Source of the DNA: Prolixibacteraceae bacterium
GTDB lineage: Bacteria; Bacteroidota; Bacteroidia; Bacteroidales; Prolixibacteraceae
NCBI GenBank assembly: GCA_028683385.1
Contig: JAQUIJ010000009.1
Span: forward strand, 186,001-250,000
Direction: 5' to 3'
Length of the DNA stretch: 64,000 bases
Shown here: in pieces, positions 3,300 through 53,240 of the stretch
Numbering within the stretch: the stretch's first letter is position 1
How the letters are laid out: each line of letters starts with the position of its first letter
Translations under genes and position numbers: made by a program
The notes under the pieces: generated by a model
Seen by the model: the letters and a program-made list of their open reading frames with translations, nothing else
Told to the model about the DNA's origin: nothing
The model's database searches: none

Positions 3300-3307
3300 T
3301 AACTTTG
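3300..3307 (+). promoter_or_regulatory. Candidate -7 box (TAACTTTG) of the B12 operon
   Basis: TAACTTTG matches TAnnTTTG. The predicted start (about 3313-3315) falls right at the first bases of the cobalamin aptamer, as expected for a riboswitch leader. Confidence 0.6.
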
Positions 3308-3314
3308 TGGCCAA

Positions 3315-3486
3315 ATAGGTTTCTCATTGAGAATTAAAAGGGAAACAGGTGAGTCCGGTTAACGACGATTCCTGTACAGTTCCCGCTGCTGTAATTCCTG
3401 AATAACTTTTTAACAGTAAACCACTGTTTCCCGACATGGGAAGCGGGAAGGCGTTGAAGAGGGGATAAGTCAGAAGACCTGCCTTT
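3315..3486 (+). ncRNA. Cobalamin riboswitch
   Basis: A full class-I cobalamin aptamer. The markers are AAAAGGGAAAC-AGGTGAGTCCGG near 3337-3359, the CTGTACAGTTCCCGCTGCTGTAA block (about 3372-3394), GGGAAGCGGGAAGGCG, and the 3' B12-box element AAGTCAGAAGACCTGCC ending near 3483. After the aptamer a hairpin GCTTT(3505-3509)/AAAGC(3517-3521) is also present in the second cobalamin leader at 25.5 kb. It precedes a surface protein, a BtuB-type receptor and a BtuG-type lipoprotein by about 110 nt, so it should shut the operon down when cobalamin is plentiful. No U-rich terminator is seen, which suggests translational control. Confidence 0.95.
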
Positions 3487-3599
3487 ACAAATCTGGATTT
3501 TGAAGCTTTCGGCGAAAAAGCAAAAAACCGTGTATCCTTTTCATTTTTTCATTTCTGAAAAGCTGCAAAATCCAAACTAAGAATCAGATTTTACAGCAA

Positions 3600-6026
3600 A
3601 TGTTTCAATTTAAACACATAAATAAGTTATTCATCATCAGTGTGCTGATGTTTTTGTCTGGACGTGTGGATGCCCAGTTTGTTTCCAAAGTGTTGGATTA
3701 TTCGCCTGCTCCGGGCCAATATACCAATGCCGATTTTATTGGGACGCCATCTGCCGCTAATTCATTGGTTGGAATCAATAAAGGAATGGTTAGTCTGGGC
3801 GCTTTTGGCGGATCAATCACCGTTTATTTTGCTCAGGGCATTCAAAATGATCCGGCAAATCCTTATGGTGTTGATTTTACGATCTATGGAAATCCAACAC
3901 CAACATGGTCGGAACCCGGAATTATTCAGGTGATGAAAGATGAAAACCATAATGGCATTCCGGACGAAAACTGGTATGAAATTGCCGGAAGCGAGCATTT
4001 CTGGAATACAACAACATCATCCTATGAGGTCACTTACCAGAATTCTGGCTTAAATCAAGCCAGTGACATTCATTGGTCTGATAATCTGGGAGGTTCGGGT
4101 GTTATTCCTGAAAACAGTTATCACGCGCAAACCTACTATCCCAAAGTTGATTTGTTCCCAAATATTGCCACTGATAAATACACGCTTAAAGGTACCCGGC
4201 TAACGAATCCAATTGATGTGTCGACTCCGGGCTCGGTTATTTCGTACCGAAAAACGTTTGGTTATGCTGATAATACTCCGGTTAAATCATTAACTGAAAA
4301 ATTGCCCGATAATCCTTACACTTCAACAATTGAAGGAAGTGGTGGCGATGCGATTGACATCAGTTGGGCCGTTGATCAGGATAAAAAGCCTGTGAATCTG
4401 GACGAAATTCACTTTATCCGGATTTATACAGGAATGAATGCCTTGGGCGGATGGCTGGGCGAAATTTCGACTGAAATTACCGGAATACGCGATGTGGAAC
4501 CAGCAACAATTACCGGATCAACATCGGTGATTGTTATTCAGGAAATGGCGCAGAAAACAGGAGTTGGCCAAAGCCTCGATTTGAATGCAATTCTTTTTGA
4601 AAGCGGGATCAGGAAGGCCGATGCTGCGATTGTTTGGAGTGTCAGCGATACGCAATTGGCTACAATAACCAGCGGAAAACTGGTGGCAAAAAAAGCCGGA
4701 ACAATTCAATTGCGGGCTGTATTGGCAACCAATCCTAATCTTTATTCTGAAAAGGAAATTGAGATTTTTTCGGTTGGAAAAGCTTCAATAACAATTCAAT
4801 CAAATAGCCTGAAAGTCAATGATAAACTGGAATTGACCGGAAAACTTACGGATCAGAATGGAGCTGTCCTGACTGGAATTAATACTTCATGGCGAATTGA
4901 TGATGCTCAGATCGCTGAAATTGTCAACTTAGACGGAAAGTACTATCTGAAAGGGAAACAGGTTGGGAAATGTTGGCTTCATTTTGAAGTCGCCGATAAT
5001 CCATCGATTAGTGATTCGATACAGATTGAGGTTTTGCCCGAATCGGAGCTGAAGAAAGTTTACATTTCGGTAAAGACAAGTGAAAAAACGGTTATTCCAC
5101 GGCAATCGGTTTGGGTTGAACAAGTTGATCTGACAGCAAAGGTTGACCGGAATCAAAAAAACTATGGGTTGACGGAGATCAGCTTTGTTTCACTTACACA
5201 TGCCATTGCTTCTGTTTTTAAAGCTTCCGGATTTGATGGCGACTGGGCTTTCCGCGATGATGCGGAAGGCGGATCTGCTTTGTATTTGTGGAAAGTTCCG
5301 GCGATTGAAGATGGTTCGACGGTTTACACGTTTGGGTATGGAGGTTCGCGTACTGCGGATTCCTATCGGAAAACCTGGGTGGTGATGCTCAATCAACAGC
5401 CTGTTGTTTCGGGTTTCGACAAAATTAAAGTAAATAACGATGATGAAATTCTAATTTATCACATCACTGATAATAATCTGGCATGGACAGTAACTCAGTT
5501 AACTTCAGGAGATGATACAGTAAAGGTTGGTCAATCTGTTGAAGTTCAGTTGAAAAAGTATCATTGTACCATGGATGCCAATCGAAATGTGGCTATTAAT
5601 TCATCTGAAGCAATTGCCAGTCAGTTGGTTGTTGCCATGCCCAATGCTGCTGAGGCCAATAAGGTGTCGCTTACCACCGACGAATTTGGAAAAGCGTCGT
5701 TCACAGCAAATCAGTCGGGCGAATACCTGATTCGTTCAGGAATTGATTCCTCGCGGTTGATTGTGAAGATGGTTACCGGAGCAAATTCGCTACAGCAAGC
5801 GCCCCAGCGGTGTGCTATCTATCCGAACCCGTTTACCGAAACCGTTAAAATAAATTGCTCATCGCCCATCGATTCTGTGGAACTATTTACAATTGAAGGT
5901 GCTCTGATTCACGTTCAGCAAGGATCGGCAACTGAATTGAATTTAAGGAATTTAGCTTCGGGTTTATACGTTCTTCGGGTAAAATCCGGGAATCAGGTAT
6001 TTCAGCAGAAAATTGTAAAAAGATAG
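3600..6026 (+). CDS. B12-regulated T9SS-sorted surface protein with Ig-like domain
   Basis: An 808-residue exported protein, first gene of the cobalamin-riboswitch operon. It has a signal peptide (residues 1-26, cut after VDAQ) and a roughly 270-residue N-terminal domain of the type found in Bacteroidota 'cell surface proteins' beside btuB (VLDYSPAPGQYTNADFIG, YGVDFTIYGNP, IRIYTGMNALGGWLGE). A BIG2-like Ig domain follows (about 305-395, ending SGKLVAKKAGTIQLRAVL), then another beta-domain. The region about 480-650 contains KTWVVMLNQQPVVSGFDKI and DDEILIYHI, which loosely resembles transcobalamin-like DUF4430 folds (tentative). The C-terminal ~75 residues are a type IX sorting domain (IYPNPFTETVKI, LASGLYVLRV). 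A role in B12 capture is inferred from context. The stop is 4 bp before the next start. Confidence 0.88.
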   Translation: MFQFKHINKLFIISVLMFLSGRVDAQFVSKVLDYSPAPGQYTNADFIGTPSAANSLVGINKGMVSLGAFGGSITVYFAQGIQNDPANPYGVDFTIYGNPTPTWSEPGIIQVMKDENHNGIPDENWYEIAGSEHFWNTTTSSYEVTYQNSGLNQASDIHWSDNLGGSGVIPENSYHAQTYYPKVDLFPNIATDKYTLKGTRLTNPIDVSTPGSVISYRKTFGYADNTPVKSLTEKLPDNPYTSTIEGSGGDAIDISWAVDQDKKPVNLDEIHFIRIYTGMNALGGWLGEISTEITGIRDVEPATITGSTSVIVIQEMAQKTGVGQSLDLNAILFESGIRKADAAIVWSVSDTQLATITSGKLVAKKAGTIQLRAVLATNPNLYSEKEIEIFSVGKASITIQSNSLKVNDKLELTGKLTDQNGAVLTGINTSWRIDDAQIAEIVNLDGKYYLKGKQVGKCWLHFEVADNPSISDSIQIEVLPESELKKVYISVKTSEKTVIPRQSVWVEQVDLTAKVDRNQKNYGLTEISFVSLTHAIASVFKASGFDGDWAFRDDAEGGSALYLWKVPAIEDGSTVYTFGYGGSRTADSYRKTWVVMLNQQPVVSGFDKIKVNNDDEILIYHITDNNLAWTVTQLTSGDDTVKVGQSVEVQLKKYHCTMDANRNVAINSSEAIASQLVVAMPNAAEANKVSLTTDEFGKASFTANQSGEYLIRSGIDSSRLIVKMVTGANSLQQAPQRCAIYPNPFTETVKINCSSPIDSVELFTIEGALIHVQQGSATELNLRNLASGLYVLRVKSGNQVFQQKIVKR

Positions 6027-6030
6027 AAAG

Positions 6031-8022
6031 GTGAGAGCAAAAATAAGAAATCTCATCCGTATCAAATTCAAAGTACTGCTTTGTATCCTGTTCCTGATTT
6101 ATTTTTCTGATGAAATTTCAGCACAGAAATTAACTGATACAATTCGTATTCAGGAAGTTCAGGTGTTTGGTAAACGGAAAATTGAGGAGGCCGGTTCGAT
6201 GGTTACTCACATTGATACACTATCACTTCAATTGATGAAAACACAAACGATTTCGGAATTGTTATCGTCGTATTCTCCGGTTTTTATGAAATCTTACGGA
6301 AGAGGTTCAACTGCAACGGCTTCGTTTCGGGGAACTGCCCCATCGCATACACAAGTGTTTTGGAACGGAATGAAACTTAATTCGCCCATGCGCGGCGATG
6401 TCGACTTTTCGTTGTTCCCGGTTTATTTCATTGATGATATTAGTTTATTTCACGGAGGAAGTTCTTTGCAGTCGGGCTCGGGAGCGCTCGGTGGGAGTGT
6501 TTTGATCAACAATAAGCCCGATTGGACTGACCGGTTTAGCGTCCGCTATGTACAAAAGCTGGAAAGTTTTTCTACCGCCAAAGAATACCTGAACGTCGGT
6601 TTTGGAAATGGCCGGACTCAGTTGAAAACACGTTTGTTTTCTGATCAAAGCAAAAATGATTTTCCGTATTTCAATTATGGCGTTTTGCCCATGCACGAGT
6701 CGGTTCAGAAGAATGCCGGATATGCAAAGCTGGGTGCGCTTCAGGAGCTTTATTGCCGGTTGGCGAAACATACTCTTTCGGCTAAATTGTGGGCTTATCA
6801 GAATGATCGTGATTTGCCTCAATTGATGTCGTTTGAAGGCGATGTTCGAAAGGAAACACAGAATGATTGGAATGTTCGGGCAGTTGGTTCGTGGAAATAC
6901 ATGACAGAAAAAAGTAAGCTGGAATTGCTTGTAGGATTGAATCGGAATCAACTTAACTATTTCAGGTCGAGTACTGAAGCTAGTTTTGTGAATTTTGATA
7001 GTCGCAGTAAGGAGAAGAGTTATACCGCAAACCTTAATTTTGACTGGAAACCACAAGAGAAACTGAGCCTGGATTGGTCGCTTAGTTCAGGTTATCATCA
7101 AGTTTCAGTTTTTGATCGGGCACAGAAGATTGGCTACGATCACGACCGGCTTGAATTTTCGTTGTTGAATGCAGTTCATTTTCAGCCTGACTCCAAATGG
7201 TTGTTTTCTTTTTTATTCCGGACAGATTTATATGATCGCAAGTTAATTGGGTTTATTCCTTCTTTTGGGGCCGAATATTTGGTGGATAAAAAGCAAAATG
7301 TTGCTTTAAAATTGAATGTTTCACGCAATTATCACCAACCTGGCTTAAACGATTTATATTGGTTTCCAGGCGGAAATTCCAGTTTAAAACCGGAAGATGG
7401 TTATTCGGGCGATCTGGCCATTTCGTATTCGAAACGCAGCGACAGGGTTATTCTTTCAGGACAAATTACCGGATTTGCATCGCTAATCGATAATTGGATT
7501 GTATGGCAACCTTCGTCAAGTGGTGCATCCTATTGGGAAGCAAATAATCTTCGTAAGGTTTTCGCCCGGGGCGTCGAAGTTCAGTTTTCAGTACACTCTC
7601 AATTTTCGCATGATCTCACTTTTGACCTGAAAGGAAATTATTCGCATTCAGCTACATCGAACATCGATGCGGTTCCATCGGTTGACGGATCGCGGGGAAA
7701 ACAGTTGATTTACATACCAAAAGATAAAGCGAACTTGTTTGCCGAAGCCGATTACAAAAAATATTACCTGAAATTAAACGCTCCGTTTACCGGGAAGCGA
7801 TACACTTCAAGCAATAATGTGGAATCTGACTATGAAAAAGTATTGAATCCCTATTGGTTGCTTGATATGAGTGTTGGCCGACGGATCGATTTCAAACCTT
7901 TTCTGATGGATGTTGTGGTAGGAGTCGAAAATCTCACAAATTCAGATTATATGGCTATTTTATGGCGGCCAATGCCTGGTCGGTATTATTCATTAACCAT
8001 TCAAATCAGCTATAAGAAGTGA
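6031..8022 (+). CDS. btuB: TonB-dependent cobalamin receptor, BtuB-like
   Basis: A 663-residue outer-membrane TonB-dependent receptor. It begins with GTG, preceded by AGAAAG. Residues 1-32 are a signal peptide. A TonB-box-like segment (TIRIQEVQVFGKRK) is followed by a plug domain with TISELLSSYSPVFMKSYGRGSTATASFRG and the GALGGSVLINNKP end block. The rest is a 22-strand-type barrel ending in an aromatic C-terminal strand (YYSLTIQISYKK). Family homology gives only 'TonB receptor'; cobalamin as substrate comes from the upstream cobalamin riboswitch and the BtuG-like downstream gene. It overlaps or abuts both neighbours, so it is one operon with them. Confidence 0.92.
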   Translation: MRAKIRNLIRIKFKVLLCILFLIYFSDEISAQKLTDTIRIQEVQVFGKRKIEEAGSMVTHIDTLSLQLMKTQTISELLSSYSPVFMKSYGRGSTATASFRGTAPSHTQVFWNGMKLNSPMRGDVDFSLFPVYFIDDISLFHGGSSLQSGSGALGGSVLINNKPDWTDRFSVRYVQKLESFSTAKEYLNVGFGNGRTQLKTRLFSDQSKNDFPYFNYGVLPMHESVQKNAGYAKLGALQELYCRLAKHTLSAKLWAYQNDRDLPQLMSFEGDVRKETQNDWNVRAVGSWKYMTEKSKLELLVGLNRNQLNYFRSSTEASFVNFDSRSKEKSYTANLNFDWKPQEKLSLDWSLSSGYHQVSVFDRAQKIGYDHDRLEFSLLNAVHFQPDSKWLFSFLFRTDLYDRKLIGFIPSFGAEYLVDKKQNVALKLNVSRNYHQPGLNDLYWFPGGNSSLKPEDGYSGDLAISYSKRSDRVILSGQITGFASLIDNWIVWQPSSSGASYWEANNLRKVFARGVEVQFSVHSQFSHDLTFDLKGNYSHSATSNIDAVPSVDGSRGKQLIYIPKDKANLFAEADYKKYYLKLNAPFTGKRYTSSNNVESDYEKVLNPYWLLDMSVGRRIDFKPFLMDVVVGVENLTNSDYMAILWRPMPGRYYSLTIQISYKK

Positions 8023-8036
8023 AAGGAAATACGAAA

Positions 8037-9203
8037 ATGGAAGAAGACCGGAGACCGATGACCGATGACCGAAGGCAAAAGGCTTGGGGCATAGAGCATG
8101 GGGCATTGAGCAAAGGGCATAGTGTCTGGGGTATCTTGCTATGGTTTTTTGTGGTTCAGTTGTTTTTTTCTTGTTCTAAAAATCCGCTGGATACTGTGTT
8201 TTTTGATTTTTCAGGCAATAAAGGTGTTTACATCGTTAATGAGGGTAATTTCATGTATGGCAACTCGTCGTTGTCGTTTTATGATCCTGAAGCAAAAAGG
8301 GTGTACAATGACGTATTTCAGGCCAGAAACAGCGCTCCATTGGGCGATGTGGCCCAATCGATACAGATTTGGAATAATCTGGCTTTTGTTGTGGTAAACA
8401 ATTCGGGCAAAATATATGTGATTGATAGCCGGACGGCTGAATTTAAAGGAAACATCTCTGGTTTAAGTTCGCCCAGATATGTACATGTTGTTGATTCGCA
8501 TAAAGCTTACGTGACTGATCTTTATGCACGGAAAATTACGGTTTTCGATCCGCAAACATTCCAGATAACTGGCCATATCCCGGTTAATAATCCGAAATCA
8601 GAATTCAACCAGCATCCGACTGAGCAGATGCTCCAATTTAAGAATCTGGTTTTTGTTAACTGTTGGTCGTATGACAATAAAATTCTGGTCATTGATTCAA
8701 ATACAGATCAGTTAGTCGATTCCATTGAGGTGTTTAAACAGCCCAACAGTATGGTTCTTGATAAGTATAATAAGATTTGGGTACTGACCGATGGCGGATT
8801 TGAGGGTAGTCCATATGGATACGAACAGCCTGGCTTATTGAAAATTGATGCAGAGACATGGGAGATTGAGCGGTCGTTCCGCTTTGCACTTGGCGATAAT
8901 CCACTAAAGCTTTGCATAAATTCTACCGGCGATACCGTTTATTATTTAAACAGGCATGTTTGGCGAATGTCGGTCACCGATACGCGAATACCCGAACAAC
9001 CGTTTATCAATTCCGATTATTCCAGTTCATATGGAGGATTTTATAGCCTTGGTATTGATCCGTTAAGCTCTGAAATTTATGTTGGTGATGCTATAGATCA
9101 CAGGCAAAATGGCATTGTTCACCGCTATTCTCCGTCTGGAAAACTGATCGATGAATTTAAAGTAGGAATATCGCCCGGAAATTTTGGTTTTAAAACTGAA
9201 TAG
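8037..9203 (+). CDS. btuG: BtuG-like surface beta-propeller lipoprotein
   Basis: A YncE/DUF5074-type beta-propeller, 388 residues from ATG 8037, which has AAGGA 9 nt upstream; an in-frame GTG at 8019 overlaps the btuB stop. The repeating blades show the KIYVIDSRTAEFKG, KAYVTDLYARKITVFDP and ILVIDSNTDQLVDSIEV pattern. A lipoprotein signal (ILLWFFVVQLFFSC) ends at Cys46. In Bacteroides, BtuG is a surface lipoprotein that binds B12 very tightly and hands it to BtuB; this gene is the last of the riboswitch operon. Oddly, residues 1-36, before the signal peptide, are encoded by low-complexity DNA (ACCGATGACCGATGACCG and GGGCATAGAGCATGGGGC words) of the type seen between genes here, so the true start may be later. 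Confidence 0.85.
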   Translation: MEEDRRPMTDDRRQKAWGIEHGALSKGHSVWGILLWFFVVQLFFSCSKNPLDTVFFDFSGNKGVYIVNEGNFMYGNSSLSFYDPEAKRVYNDVFQARNSAPLGDVAQSIQIWNNLAFVVVNNSGKIYVIDSRTAEFKGNISGLSSPRYVHVVDSHKAYVTDLYARKITVFDPQTFQITGHIPVNNPKSEFNQHPTEQMLQFKNLVFVNCWSYDNKILVIDSNTDQLVDSIEVFKQPNSMVLDKYNKIWVLTDGGFEGSPYGYEQPGLLKIDAETWEIERSFRFALGDNPLKLCINSTGDTVYYLNRHVWRMSVTDTRIPEQPFINSDYSSSYGGFYSLGIDPLSSEIYVGDAIDHRQNGIVHRYSPSGKLIDEFKVGISPGNFGFKTE

Positions 9204-23837: not shown

Positions 23838-25466
23838 CTATTTTTTAATCAGCTTTGTCGTAAATTGGTTCTTGCCTTCTTCAATTTTCAGGATATATAC
23901 TCCTGAAGTTAATTCATCGAGATTGGTAATCGTTTGATTGTTTGATACATTAAGGTATTCAGCAACTTTTCTTCCTGAAATGTCGGAGATTGAAACCTTA
24001 GCCGTTCCGATTATTCCTGAAATAACAATTCGGTCAACAAATGGATTGGGAAAAACGCCTGCCTGAATTTGGTGCAATTCAGAAGTTGATGTTACGATTT
24101 CCTTATTCAGGTTGTCAATGCAAAAATAGCCTGGAGTTTTCATGCCATATTCATTGTTATCAGTCGAGCGTAATGAAAATTCAAGTTTCGAGATGCGACC
24201 GAGTTTTTTGAGGTCAACCCATTTCCATGTATTCAGGATATAATCGTTGGCATTGTCGCTGTAAGCAAAATCGGCCAGATTAACATTGACTTCACCGGTT
24301 GATTTGCCATCCGAATCGAATCCCTGAATGGTCAATAGTAACCAGTCTGGGTCGTTTCCGCTTTCACCGCCAAACTTTTTGGCATAGTCATCGCCGTTTT
24401 TCATCGATAAATAGGCATAAGTGCTGTTGGTTACATATAAGCCAGAAACAATGGTGTCTTTAAAGGTTATTGTAGAAACTGGGAAGGGATAACCAACTGC
24501 ATAATTAGATGTTCCGTTGACACCTTTACCTGTAATGGCACTGTATTGATTGGTGTAGCCCGGAGTTGTAACATCGGTTTTATTCGATGTTGCAAATCCC
24601 GACCAGTAATCACCATAATCTGATTGGGTATAATTCGTGAAGAACCGGAAGTTGCCGCTGGCAAATCCACCCTTACCATCGCTGCCGTTGTAAAAGCCTT
24701 GTGTGCCCAGGTTCATATTTTCGAAACTGGCATAAGTAACTGGTTTATAGTCGTATGGTTTCTCTCCGTTTAAATCATCCATGCAGAAATACCCTGGAGT
24801 ATTCATGTAGCCGTAGCTATTGTCGCTTGAACTCAGACTGAAACGAAGTTTTTTTGCTTCTTTCAGTTGGCTAAGGTCAACCCAGGTCCATTTATTCAGG
24901 ATGTAATCTTTCGAATTGTCGCTCGAACGGAAGTCGGCCAGGTAAAAATATACCGTATCAACTGGTTTACTGTTCGCATCCAAAGCCTCAATCATCAGCT
25001 TGAAATAGTCAGGGTCATTTCCTGTAGGCCCACCAAATTTTTTGGCATATTCATCCCCATTTTTCATCGAAAGGTAAGCATAGGTTGAGTTTGTAACGTA
25101 AAAACCTGTGGTTTGAGTTGACGCACTGAATTCAAGTTCAGCCGAAGGCGACGAATAACAAACAGCATAGTTGGCGCTTCCTTCATAGCCTTTCCCGGTT
25201 ATTGCACTGTACTGATTTCCATAGCCAGCAGTTGTATTGTCGGTCATGTTCGAGTAGACAAAACCATTCCAATAATCGCCGGATGTACTTTTGGTATAAG
25301 CATTATAGAAAGTTATGCCTGAACTTTTAAAACTACCCGATAAATCGGAACCGTTCCAGAATGTTTCCGGAGCCAGTGTCAGGTCATCAAACTTGGCAAC
25401 TGTTTGTGACTTTGCATTAAAAACTAAGAAAGCGGCAAGAATTGCCATCATGTAGATTTGTTTCAT
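23838..25466 (-). CDS. B12-regulated tandem DUF4465 T9SS cargo protein, BtuH-like
   Basis: A 542-residue exported protein controlled by the cobalamin riboswitch at 25.6 kb. The start at 25466 begins a normal signal peptide (MKQIYMMAILAAFLVFNAKS); the longer frame back to 25589 runs into the leader RNA and is not credible. It has two DUF4465 repeats of about 220 residues, each with GDYWxGFxxSNxTD, NQYSAITGKG, FYVTNSTYAYLSMKNGD or LYVTNSTYAYLSMKNGD, AKKFGG, GNDPD, LADF, WVDL and TPGYFCxDxLN. A C-terminal type IX sorting domain follows (VFPNPFVDRIVISG, LTSGVYILKIEEGKNQFTTKLI). Cobalamin-regulated DUF4465 proteins have been linked to B12 binding (BtuH) in Bacteroides; that part is recall, so the function is inferred. 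Confidence 0.87.
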   Translation of the reverse strand: MKQIYMMAILAAFLVFNAKSQTVAKFDDLTLAPETFWNGSDLSGSFKSSGITFYNAYTKSTSGDYWNGFVYSNMTDNTTAGYGNQYSAITGKGYEGSANYAVCYSSPSAELEFSASTQTTGFYVTNSTYAYLSMKNGDEYAKKFGGPTGNDPDYFKLMIEALDANSKPVDTVYFYLADFRSSDNSKDYILNKWTWVDLSQLKEAKKLRFSLSSSDNSYGYMNTPGYFCMDDLNGEKPYDYKPVTYASFENMNLGTQGFYNGSDGKGGFASGNFRFFTNYTQSDYGDYWSGFATSNKTDVTTPGYTNQYSAITGKGVNGTSNYAVGYPFPVSTITFKDTIVSGLYVTNSTYAYLSMKNGDDYAKKFGGESGNDPDWLLLTIQGFDSDGKSTGEVNVNLADFAYSDNANDYILNTWKWVDLKKLGRISKLEFSLRSTDNNEYGMKTPGYFCIDNLNKEIVTSTSELHQIQAGVFPNPFVDRIVISGIIGTAKVSISDISGRKVAEYLNVSNNQTITNLDELTSGVYILKIEEGKNQFTTKLIKK

Positions 25467-25589
25467 TATGTAAAAATTTTGAATGGTTTCAAAAGATTTA
25501 CAATACGCAAAACTGCTGAAATAACCGATTGGATACTGGATTTGGTTACTCCAAGCCTTTTCTCCCGAAAGCTTTGAATATTGTAGCAC

Positions 25590-25755
25590 GAATGGCAGGT
25601 CTTCTGGCTTACTCCATTTTTTGCGGCCTTCCCATCCATCGAACGACGAAAAGTGGCGTGAGTTGCAAAAAATATTCAGAGTTTACAGCTGCGGGTACAG
25701 CTCCGGAATTGAACCGGATTCCCTCTTGATGCTTAAAAATCAGCATCACCATTTC
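25590..25755 (-). ncRNA. Cobalamin riboswitch
   Basis: Minus-strand cobalamin aptamer. It reads (minus strand) GCATCAAGAGGGAATCCGG near 25712-25732, GAGCTGTACCCGCAGCTGTAA (about 25683-25703), GATGGGAAGGCCGCAAAA, and the B12-box TAAGCCAGAAGACCTGCCA (about 25593-25612). The gene start is about 125 nt downstream. The hairpin GCTTT/AAGGC (25555-25572) after the aptamer corresponds to the one in the 3.5-kb leader. A TAATTTTG box (25772-25779) lies just upstream. It should repress the DUF4465 gene when cobalamin is available. Confidence 0.95.
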
Positions 25756-25771
25756 GGCAGCTAAGATAGAT

Positions 25772-52841: not shown

Positions 52842-52920
52842 TGTTTGTATCTGCGTTTAATAAATTCTTAGCTTCTTTTTTTTTCTCGTTTAAATTCCCT
52901 GTTTTCACGATGAATCCCTC

Positions 52921-53187
52921 GGCCTGTAAGGCCAGAATATTTCAGCCCAGGGCAACGCCCTGGGTAAAAGAGTCACATGAAAAACCGTCCGTGGAGAAAA
53001 GATGATGAATGCAATAAATTTCATTCGGACGGAATTGTAATAAATTATTTTCAAAGAAACATGTGACGATCCTTTTCGTCCGAAACAACAATTGTTCTTC
53101 TAAAAATGATATTGCGCGGACGATTTTATTCGTTGCGTTTATTCCCAGGGCGTTGCCCTGGGCTAAATTAAACTGTCCTTTCAGGAC
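52921..53187. repeat. Large inverted repeat between cysD and cysNC
   Basis: 44-nt arms at 52921-52964 and 53144-53187 are inverted copies with 7 mismatches. Each arm holds the hairpin CCCAGGGC/GCCCTGGG and an outer small hairpin (GGCC...GGCC on the left, GTCC...GGAC on the right) whose differences are compensatory. The 180-bp middle has no gene. Confidence 0.82.
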
Positions 53188-53240
53188 ATTATTGTTTTCG
53201 TTGATTACCATTTTTCTTCAGTTGATGTTGTCGGATTCCG

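Follow-up and report, generated by a model that had tools for sequence, protein, structure and literature searches.

How is vitamin B12 captured at the surface of Bacteroidota outside the well-described gut species? The B12 capture proteins described for Bacteroides thetaiotaomicron are lipoproteins in the literature consulted for this analysis. A different arrangement is found in a stretch of 64,000 nucleotides (nt) from a Prolixibacteraceae bacterium (assembly GCA_028683385.1, contig JAQUIJ010000009.1, positions 186,001–250,000, forward strand), here called the window. In it, a cobalamin riboswitch is followed by a gene for a protein of 808 amino acid residues (aa) that ends in a sorting tail of the type IX secretion system (T9SS). 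What does such a protein do at the head of a B12 uptake operon? We propose, with a probability of about 0.8, that it is a T9SS-displayed, B12-repressed scavenger handing B12 to BtuG–BtuB.

The Operon and Its First Protein

The plus strand carries, in order, the riboswitch and closely spaced genes for the 808-aa protein, a BtuB-like receptor and BtuG, as follows.

3300..3500, plus strand: cobalamin riboswitch aptamer (RF00174; cmscan 97.3 bits, E 4.8e-23, gathering score 31.5)
3600..6026, plus strand: open reading frame (ORF) of the 808-aa T9SS-tailed BtuH-domain protein (Pfam/NCBIfam, phmmer, AlphaFold2, Foldseek)
3600..3674, plus strand: signal peptide lacking a lipobox, residues about 1–25 (simple pattern scan)
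3675..4496, plus strand: BtuH B12-binding domain, residues 26–299 (phmmer against PDB; Foldseek ranks 1–3)
4497..5039, plus strand: two immunoglobulin (Ig)-like domains, residues about 300–480 (all beta in the AlphaFold2 model; sub-threshold Big_1 in relative L038)
5043..5549, plus strand: transcobalamin-beta-like domain by predicted fold, residues 482–650 (AlphaFold2 and Foldseek)
5535..5768, plus strand: further Ig-like domain, residues about 646–723 (AlphaFold2 model; sub-threshold SdrD_B)
5817..6023, plus strand: T9SS type A sorting domain, residues 740–808 (TIGR04183 1.4e-12, PF18962 6e-11, both above cut-off)
6031..8022, plus strand: BtuB-like TonB-dependent receptor (PF07715 above cut-off; TIGR01779 E 5e-24, below its cut-off)
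8106..9203, plus strand: BtuG propeller lipoprotein, likely start TTG 8106, lipobox LFFSC (PF16819, DUF5074, 6.5e-29, above cut-off)

A preliminary description of the locus had read it as an operon of riboswitch, T9SS protein, BtuB-like receptor and BtuG-like propeller, and the RF00174, TIGR04183, receptor and PF16819 matches bear this out; the riboswitch it placed from 3315 is present, though the RF00174 match begins at 3300. ORF1 and ORF2 are separated by 4 nt. ORF2 and ORF3 overlap by 4 nt from the listed ORF3 start (8019), or lie 83 nt apart from the start at 8106. The sequence makes it likely that the three genes share one transcript; promoter and terminator scans gave nothing clear.

The same description supposed that the first protein has an unknown fold and may be a novel B12-binding or presenting surface component, T9SS-tailed where the Bacteroides partners are lipoproteins. 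The tail is confirmed (TIGR04183, 47.4 bits against a cut-off of 23), and so is the contrast with the lipoproteins of B. thetaiotaomicron. The unknown fold is ruled out: over residues 25–299, a phmmer search of PDB finds 8blw_B, the BtuH domain of BtuG1 (E 5.7e-43), and 7biz_A, BtuH2 (E 1.6e-32). In the whole-protein AlphaFold2 model, built on a 25-sequence alignment and almost all beta (mean predicted local distance difference test score, pLDDT, 85.7; predicted template modelling score, pTM, 0.55), these BtuH structures take Foldseek ranks 1–3 against PDB. The homology indicates that the 808-aa protein is very probably a B12-binding surface component, as had been suggested, with a main binding part that is a known domain and not a novel one. 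Among the matches listed, the closest named relative of this BtuH domain is L038, from a Prolixibacteraceae metagenome-assembled genome, at 80% identity.

Eight B12 contacts of BtuH2 are given in PMC8941943. Five of them, Gln333, Asn399, His476, Trp577 and Leu578, are retained as Q40, N98, H175, W285 and L286, and the contact Gln, Asn and His hardly vary, whether the relatives are tailed or lipoproteins. The 808-aa protein shares with BtuH2 of B. thetaiotaomicron and with the BtuH domain of BtuG1 the B12-binding domain, with five of the eight BtuH2 contacts, and an operon with BtuB and BtuG. BtuH2 and BtuG1, in contrast, are lipoproteins with a C-terminal binding domain, whereas the window protein has its binding domain at the N-terminus, is T9SS-tailed and is encoded before BtuB. 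Since it has a T9SS tail and no lipobox by pattern, it is filed here as a BtuH-domain protein, not as a BtuH lipoprotein.

Downstream, the receptor has its best NCBIfam match in TIGR01779, the B12 receptor. BtuG matches nine distinct PDB sequences at E 2e-106 or better, including 8p98, named BtuB3G3 in PMC12578637. The pair resembles the BtuB–BtuG complex of Bacteroides in having a receptor and a BtuG lipoprotein, although the window receptor is only BtuB-like by profile score. Tandem 14-nt repeats (8043–8134; four GGGCAT-type and two GATGACC-type copies) occupy the first part of the BtuG frame, making the listed GTG start doubtful and TTG 8106 likelier. The lipobox is present if translation starts at TTG 8106.

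Tail and Lipid Anchor among BtuH Relatives

Is the tail peculiar to this protein? BtuH loci from named genomes were taken as the best 80 of 576 confirmed places, so the frequencies below are not representative of the whole collection. Tails were scored with a model built from the two tails of the window and grown on BtuH loci; when eight relatives were scanned, Pfam agreed with it above cut-off in seven and fell just short in L078. The 91 BtuH domains in the tree comprise 41 T9SS-tailed rows (window included), 41 lipoprotein rows (39 by pattern plus two PDB rows assigned by hand), five cut at the 3′ end and four that are neither by pattern. A single branch of 48 rows (support 84) holds all 41 tailed rows; its other members are one lipoprotein (L076), two Clostridial proteins and four cut rows. 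Two changes between tail and lipoprotein are needed on this unrooted tree, which was made by a quick method with Shimodaira–Hasegawa-like approximate likelihood ratio support only and leaves 26 of 88 inner branches open. Most tailed rows come from uncultured Bacteroidales, and Fulvivirga (L068) and Bacteroides nordii (L075) are also represented.

BtuB is directly 3′ of BtuH for 33/41 tailed rows versus 1/42 others, and a riboswitch pattern lies upstream of 25/34 eligible T9SS-BtuH operons versus 21/39 other eligible BtuH operons; Rfam confirmed the riboswitch at all five T9SS-BtuH loci scanned. At T9SS-BtuH loci, the BtuG ORFs whose 5′ end is intact number 36. Each has a lipobox (32 recognised by pattern, 4 by eye), and no T9SS tail was found on any of them, four being cut at the 3′ end. 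The DUF4465 ORFs that were found have a tail in 18/19 cases. At L076, the lone lipoprotein BtuH of the tailed branch, the DUF4465 neighbour is also a lipoprotein; the gene order is T9SS-type.

The absence of T9SS is rejected as the reason for lipoprotein BtuH elsewhere, on a test of 47 of the 79 listed loci: SprA was found in 31/31 genomes chosen from T9SS-BtuH loci, four of these genomes also carrying untailed BtuH, and in 14/16 taken from loci whose only BtuH is untailed. Thus, the choice of anchor is not forced by lack of T9SS.

Two further observations concern the tailed branch. The Clostridial members L074 and L080, of 2535 and 3920 aa, are very large proteins whose BtuH domain falls inside it. 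B. nordii (L075, 6240–13555) encodes BtuH of both kinds in one gene run: a lipoprotein and, after it, a 1425-aa protein in which a BtuH domain is combined with a T9SS-like tail. SprA is present in this genome.

A tailed protein might also act away from the cell, mostly free or on vesicles, as a B12 carrier at a distance of the kind proposed for vesicle BtuJ, instead of in cell-anchored capture. T9SS cargo can be released. Vesicles of B. thetaiotaomicron are enriched in BtuK2, BtuH1, BtuJ1 and BtuL (PMC12751083). The gene studied here belongs, however, to a BtuB–BtuG operon, and we consider it rather unlikely that release is the main fate of the protein.

Several points weigh against a T9SS-displayed, B12-repressed scavenger that supplies BtuG–BtuB. 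The BtuH2 contacts Phe401, Tyr510 and Trp511 (three of eight) are replaced by Thr, Ser and Val in the 808-aa protein; these sites are variable among the 41 lipoprotein rows too. The receptor scores 84.7 bits against an equivalog cut-off of 599.7 for TIGR01779, and is therefore called BtuB-like. The riboswitch pattern had no match before 9/34 eligible T9SS-BtuH operons. Finally, simple patterns served to call signal peptides and lipoboxes, and two rows counted as tailed, L048 and L075, also match the lipobox pattern.

A Middle Domain of Predicted Transcobalamin-Like Fold

Residues 482–650 were modelled separately with AlphaFold2 on a nine-sequence alignment (pLDDT 84.5, pTM 0.82), and the secondary structure is nearly the same as in the whole-protein model. 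The top 19 Foldseek matches in PDB are all transcobalamin, haptocorrin, intrinsic factor or 3u7z from Ruminococcus gnavus; they are the only ones at E <0.1, with just three at E <0.001, and in the rest of the 50-match list the probability does not exceed 0.38. Template modelling scores by target length are 0.62–0.65 for single-domain targets (5np4 0.62, E 9.3e-4; 3u7z_A 0.65). The strand order in the model is compatible with a beta-hairpin inserted after the helix. The preliminary description had called for a structural comparison with transcobalamin and intrinsic factor; the match lies in this middle domain and not in the main binding domain.

Sequence comparisons are less telling. A Pfam scan of residues 482–650 gave no model above cut-off, and single-sequence and profile searches against PDB sequences gave no credible match. 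An hhalign comparison with four DUF4430 proteins using nine rows is weak (P 5e-4, probability 30%, 35 columns), three other segments of the 808-aa protein giving P 0.043–0.10. With 39 rows it is again weak (P 0.0036, probability 9%), with a score above each of 150 column shuffles. DUF4430 membership by Pfam is rejected, as PF14478 has no match. For these reasons the domain is named transcobalamin-beta-like, by predicted fold, and not as a family member. Its predicted fold is like that of the C-terminal domain of transcobalamin and intrinsic factor, of the SLBB transcobalamin-like clade (PMC1796856) and of Pfam DUF4430. It differs from them in being unrecognised by PF14478, in having no alpha/alpha toroid partner in the almost all-beta AlphaFold2 model, and in its fusion to BtuH and a T9SS tail.

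The domain is present in 36/140 genomes of the family of the window. In the 30 family loci examined, it always sits in an ORF to which the model built here assigns a T9SS tail, and a BtuH domain lies beside it in 29, the remaining one being cut by the locus edge. Across 395 genomes of the phylum, the only full match is in the window's own genome. Two further matches, L156 and L157, are taken as chance, being short and belonging to proteins in which no BtuH domain, tail or Pfam family was found, although the grown model scores them at 2e-7 and 6e-7 on that small set. Among the 79 listed BtuH loci and the window, nine ORFs have the domain.

Two alternatives concern the role of this domain. Tentatively, it may be a structural beta-grasp spacer, the BtuH domain doing all B12 binding. 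Consistent with a spacer, PF14478 was unmatched in 12 proteins or segments, relatives included, with the E limit set to 1 or 10; the weak profile comparison covers 35–38 columns; and the bacterial match 3u7z is titled merely a putative metal binding protein. Other beta-grasp folds, however, score far below transcobalamin in Foldseek, and at 19 positions the residue is conserved in 36 or more of the 39 rows. The second alternative is that the BtuH and transcobalamin-beta-like domains of one secreted chain close on a single B12 from two sides, like the two domains of transcobalamin. This would make the protein a bacterial counterpart of transcobalamin built from different parts, T9SS-exported and under B12-riboswitch control, in Prolixibacteraceae and a few relatives. 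The Foldseek matches and the fusion to BtuH in the family loci argue for it, as do bacterial transcobalamin-like domains fused to the toroid, which are predicted to bind B12 (PMC1796856). It is nevertheless quite improbable: two Ig-like domains separate the BtuH and middle domains, the whole-protein model is ligand-free with the low pTM given above, and 32/41 tailed BtuH ORFs have no middle domain by the search made here.

According to PMC1796856, transcobalamin-like domains occur in low-GC Gram-positives, planctomycetes and some archaea, with B12 scavenging predicted; Bacteroidetes are not listed for this clade in the available portion of that paper. Among the papers listed by a DUF4430 literature search, no title concerned Bacteroidota B12 uptake.

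A Second T9SS-Tailed, Putative Capture Protein

The window holds a further riboswitch-preceded gene, absent from the preliminary description.

25577..25768, minus strand: second cobalamin riboswitch (RF00174, 104.3 bits)
23838..25466, minus strand: T9SS-tailed protein containing two BtuJ-type (DUF4465) domains; ATG 25466 is the likely start, judged from translation (PF14717 2.8e-111, PF18962 4e-12)

PF14717 matches this protein in two stretches (370 bits). Its PDB relatives are 9fct (6e-30) and 9i2l (1.5e-9), which are BtuJ1 and BtuJ2 by PMC13398666, where distant DUF4465 members are also said to bind B12; the words T9SS and type IX were not found in the main text of that paper. The repeats contain the motifs MNTPGY and MKTPGY, and a similar motif, MNTPSY, is given in PMC12751083. 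With BtuJ1, BtuJ2 and other DUF4465 proteins, the protein has in common the DUF4465 domain and a riboswitch; those known proteins, in contrast, have a lipid anchor and not two tandem DUF4465 domains with a T9SS tail.

Riboswitch Leader and Genome Context

Between aptamer and start codon lies a weakly supported element:

3494..3574, plus strand: leader hairpin, possible expression platform

The leader is nearly identical in the window and five relatives (six of seven aligned leaders, L043 being the exception). Its folding in the window has a z of only -1.45, and 13/200 shuffles fold equally well. Alternative pairings are seen around GCTTTCGG; GCTTTCGG also occurs downstream of four of the five cobalamin riboswitches in the genome. 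One of these (L037, 4613–4807) has no obvious same-strand gene directly 3′.

The genome of the window has 43 T9SS tail matches. Of the T9SS components searched, PorU (two), PorV and SprA are above cut-off; one of the two PorU sortase homologues (G000 C42, C52) adjoins PorV. Late cobamide genes are present and, in a single-marker search, no CobJ/CbiH was found above cut-off, which fits a scavenger. Another locus of this genome (L036, 9280–11844) has the order cobalamin riboswitch, TonB receptor, small secreted DUF4430 protein and CobU/CobT/CobS; the receptor is nearest by profile to heme and then to B12 receptors, below cut-offs. Related orders are receptor-DUF4430-CobU-CobT (L117), DUF4430-CobU-CobT (L120) and DUF4430 between two receptors (L119). 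Elsewhere in the window (52920–53188), two Acido-Lenti-1 RNA matches (37.5 and 40.2 bits; gathering score 37) lie within 270 bases, one on each strand.

Proposed Mechanism and Significance

For the scavenger proposed here, cobamide scarcity would lead the riboswitch to permit expression of the operon. The 808-aa protein would cross the inner membrane via its ordinary signal peptide, and its tail would direct it to T9SS for surface display or release; such export is suggested by the tail together with PorU, PorV and SprA in the genome. B12 captured by the BtuH domain would then be passed on to BtuG, the lipoprotein lid on the BtuB receptor, a hand-over suggested by the B. thetaiotaomicron system. 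The middle domain may perhaps provide a second contact with B12 or a precursor, or aid the hand-over; of all the steps this one is the least certain. Similar work would fall to the double-DUF4465 protein, which has a riboswitch of its own.

Among the papers listed by literature searches that were weak on subscription papers and preprints, none linked T9SS with BtuH or B12 capture. In Flavobacterium psychrophilum, a cobalamin riboswitch precedes a TonB transporter near cob genes (PMC9723704); T9SS appears elsewhere in the available text of that paper, with no T9SS-sorted B12 binder.

A B12 capture protein thus appears to reach the surface by a route other than that used in gut Bacteroides, and it is predicted to carry an extra domain shaped like part of the human blood B12 carrier. 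Both free capture families, BtuH and DUF4465, are T9SS-tailed while BtuG keeps its lipid anchor; we infer that the two free capture proteins take the T9SS route and that BtuG, seated on BtuB, remains a lipoprotein. Whether B12 scavenging depends on free movement or release can be tested through this contrast in anchors. The presence of a transcobalamin-like domain in a B12 operon of Bacteroidota would, in turn, bear on the proposed bacterial origin of animal B12 carriers (PMC1796856).

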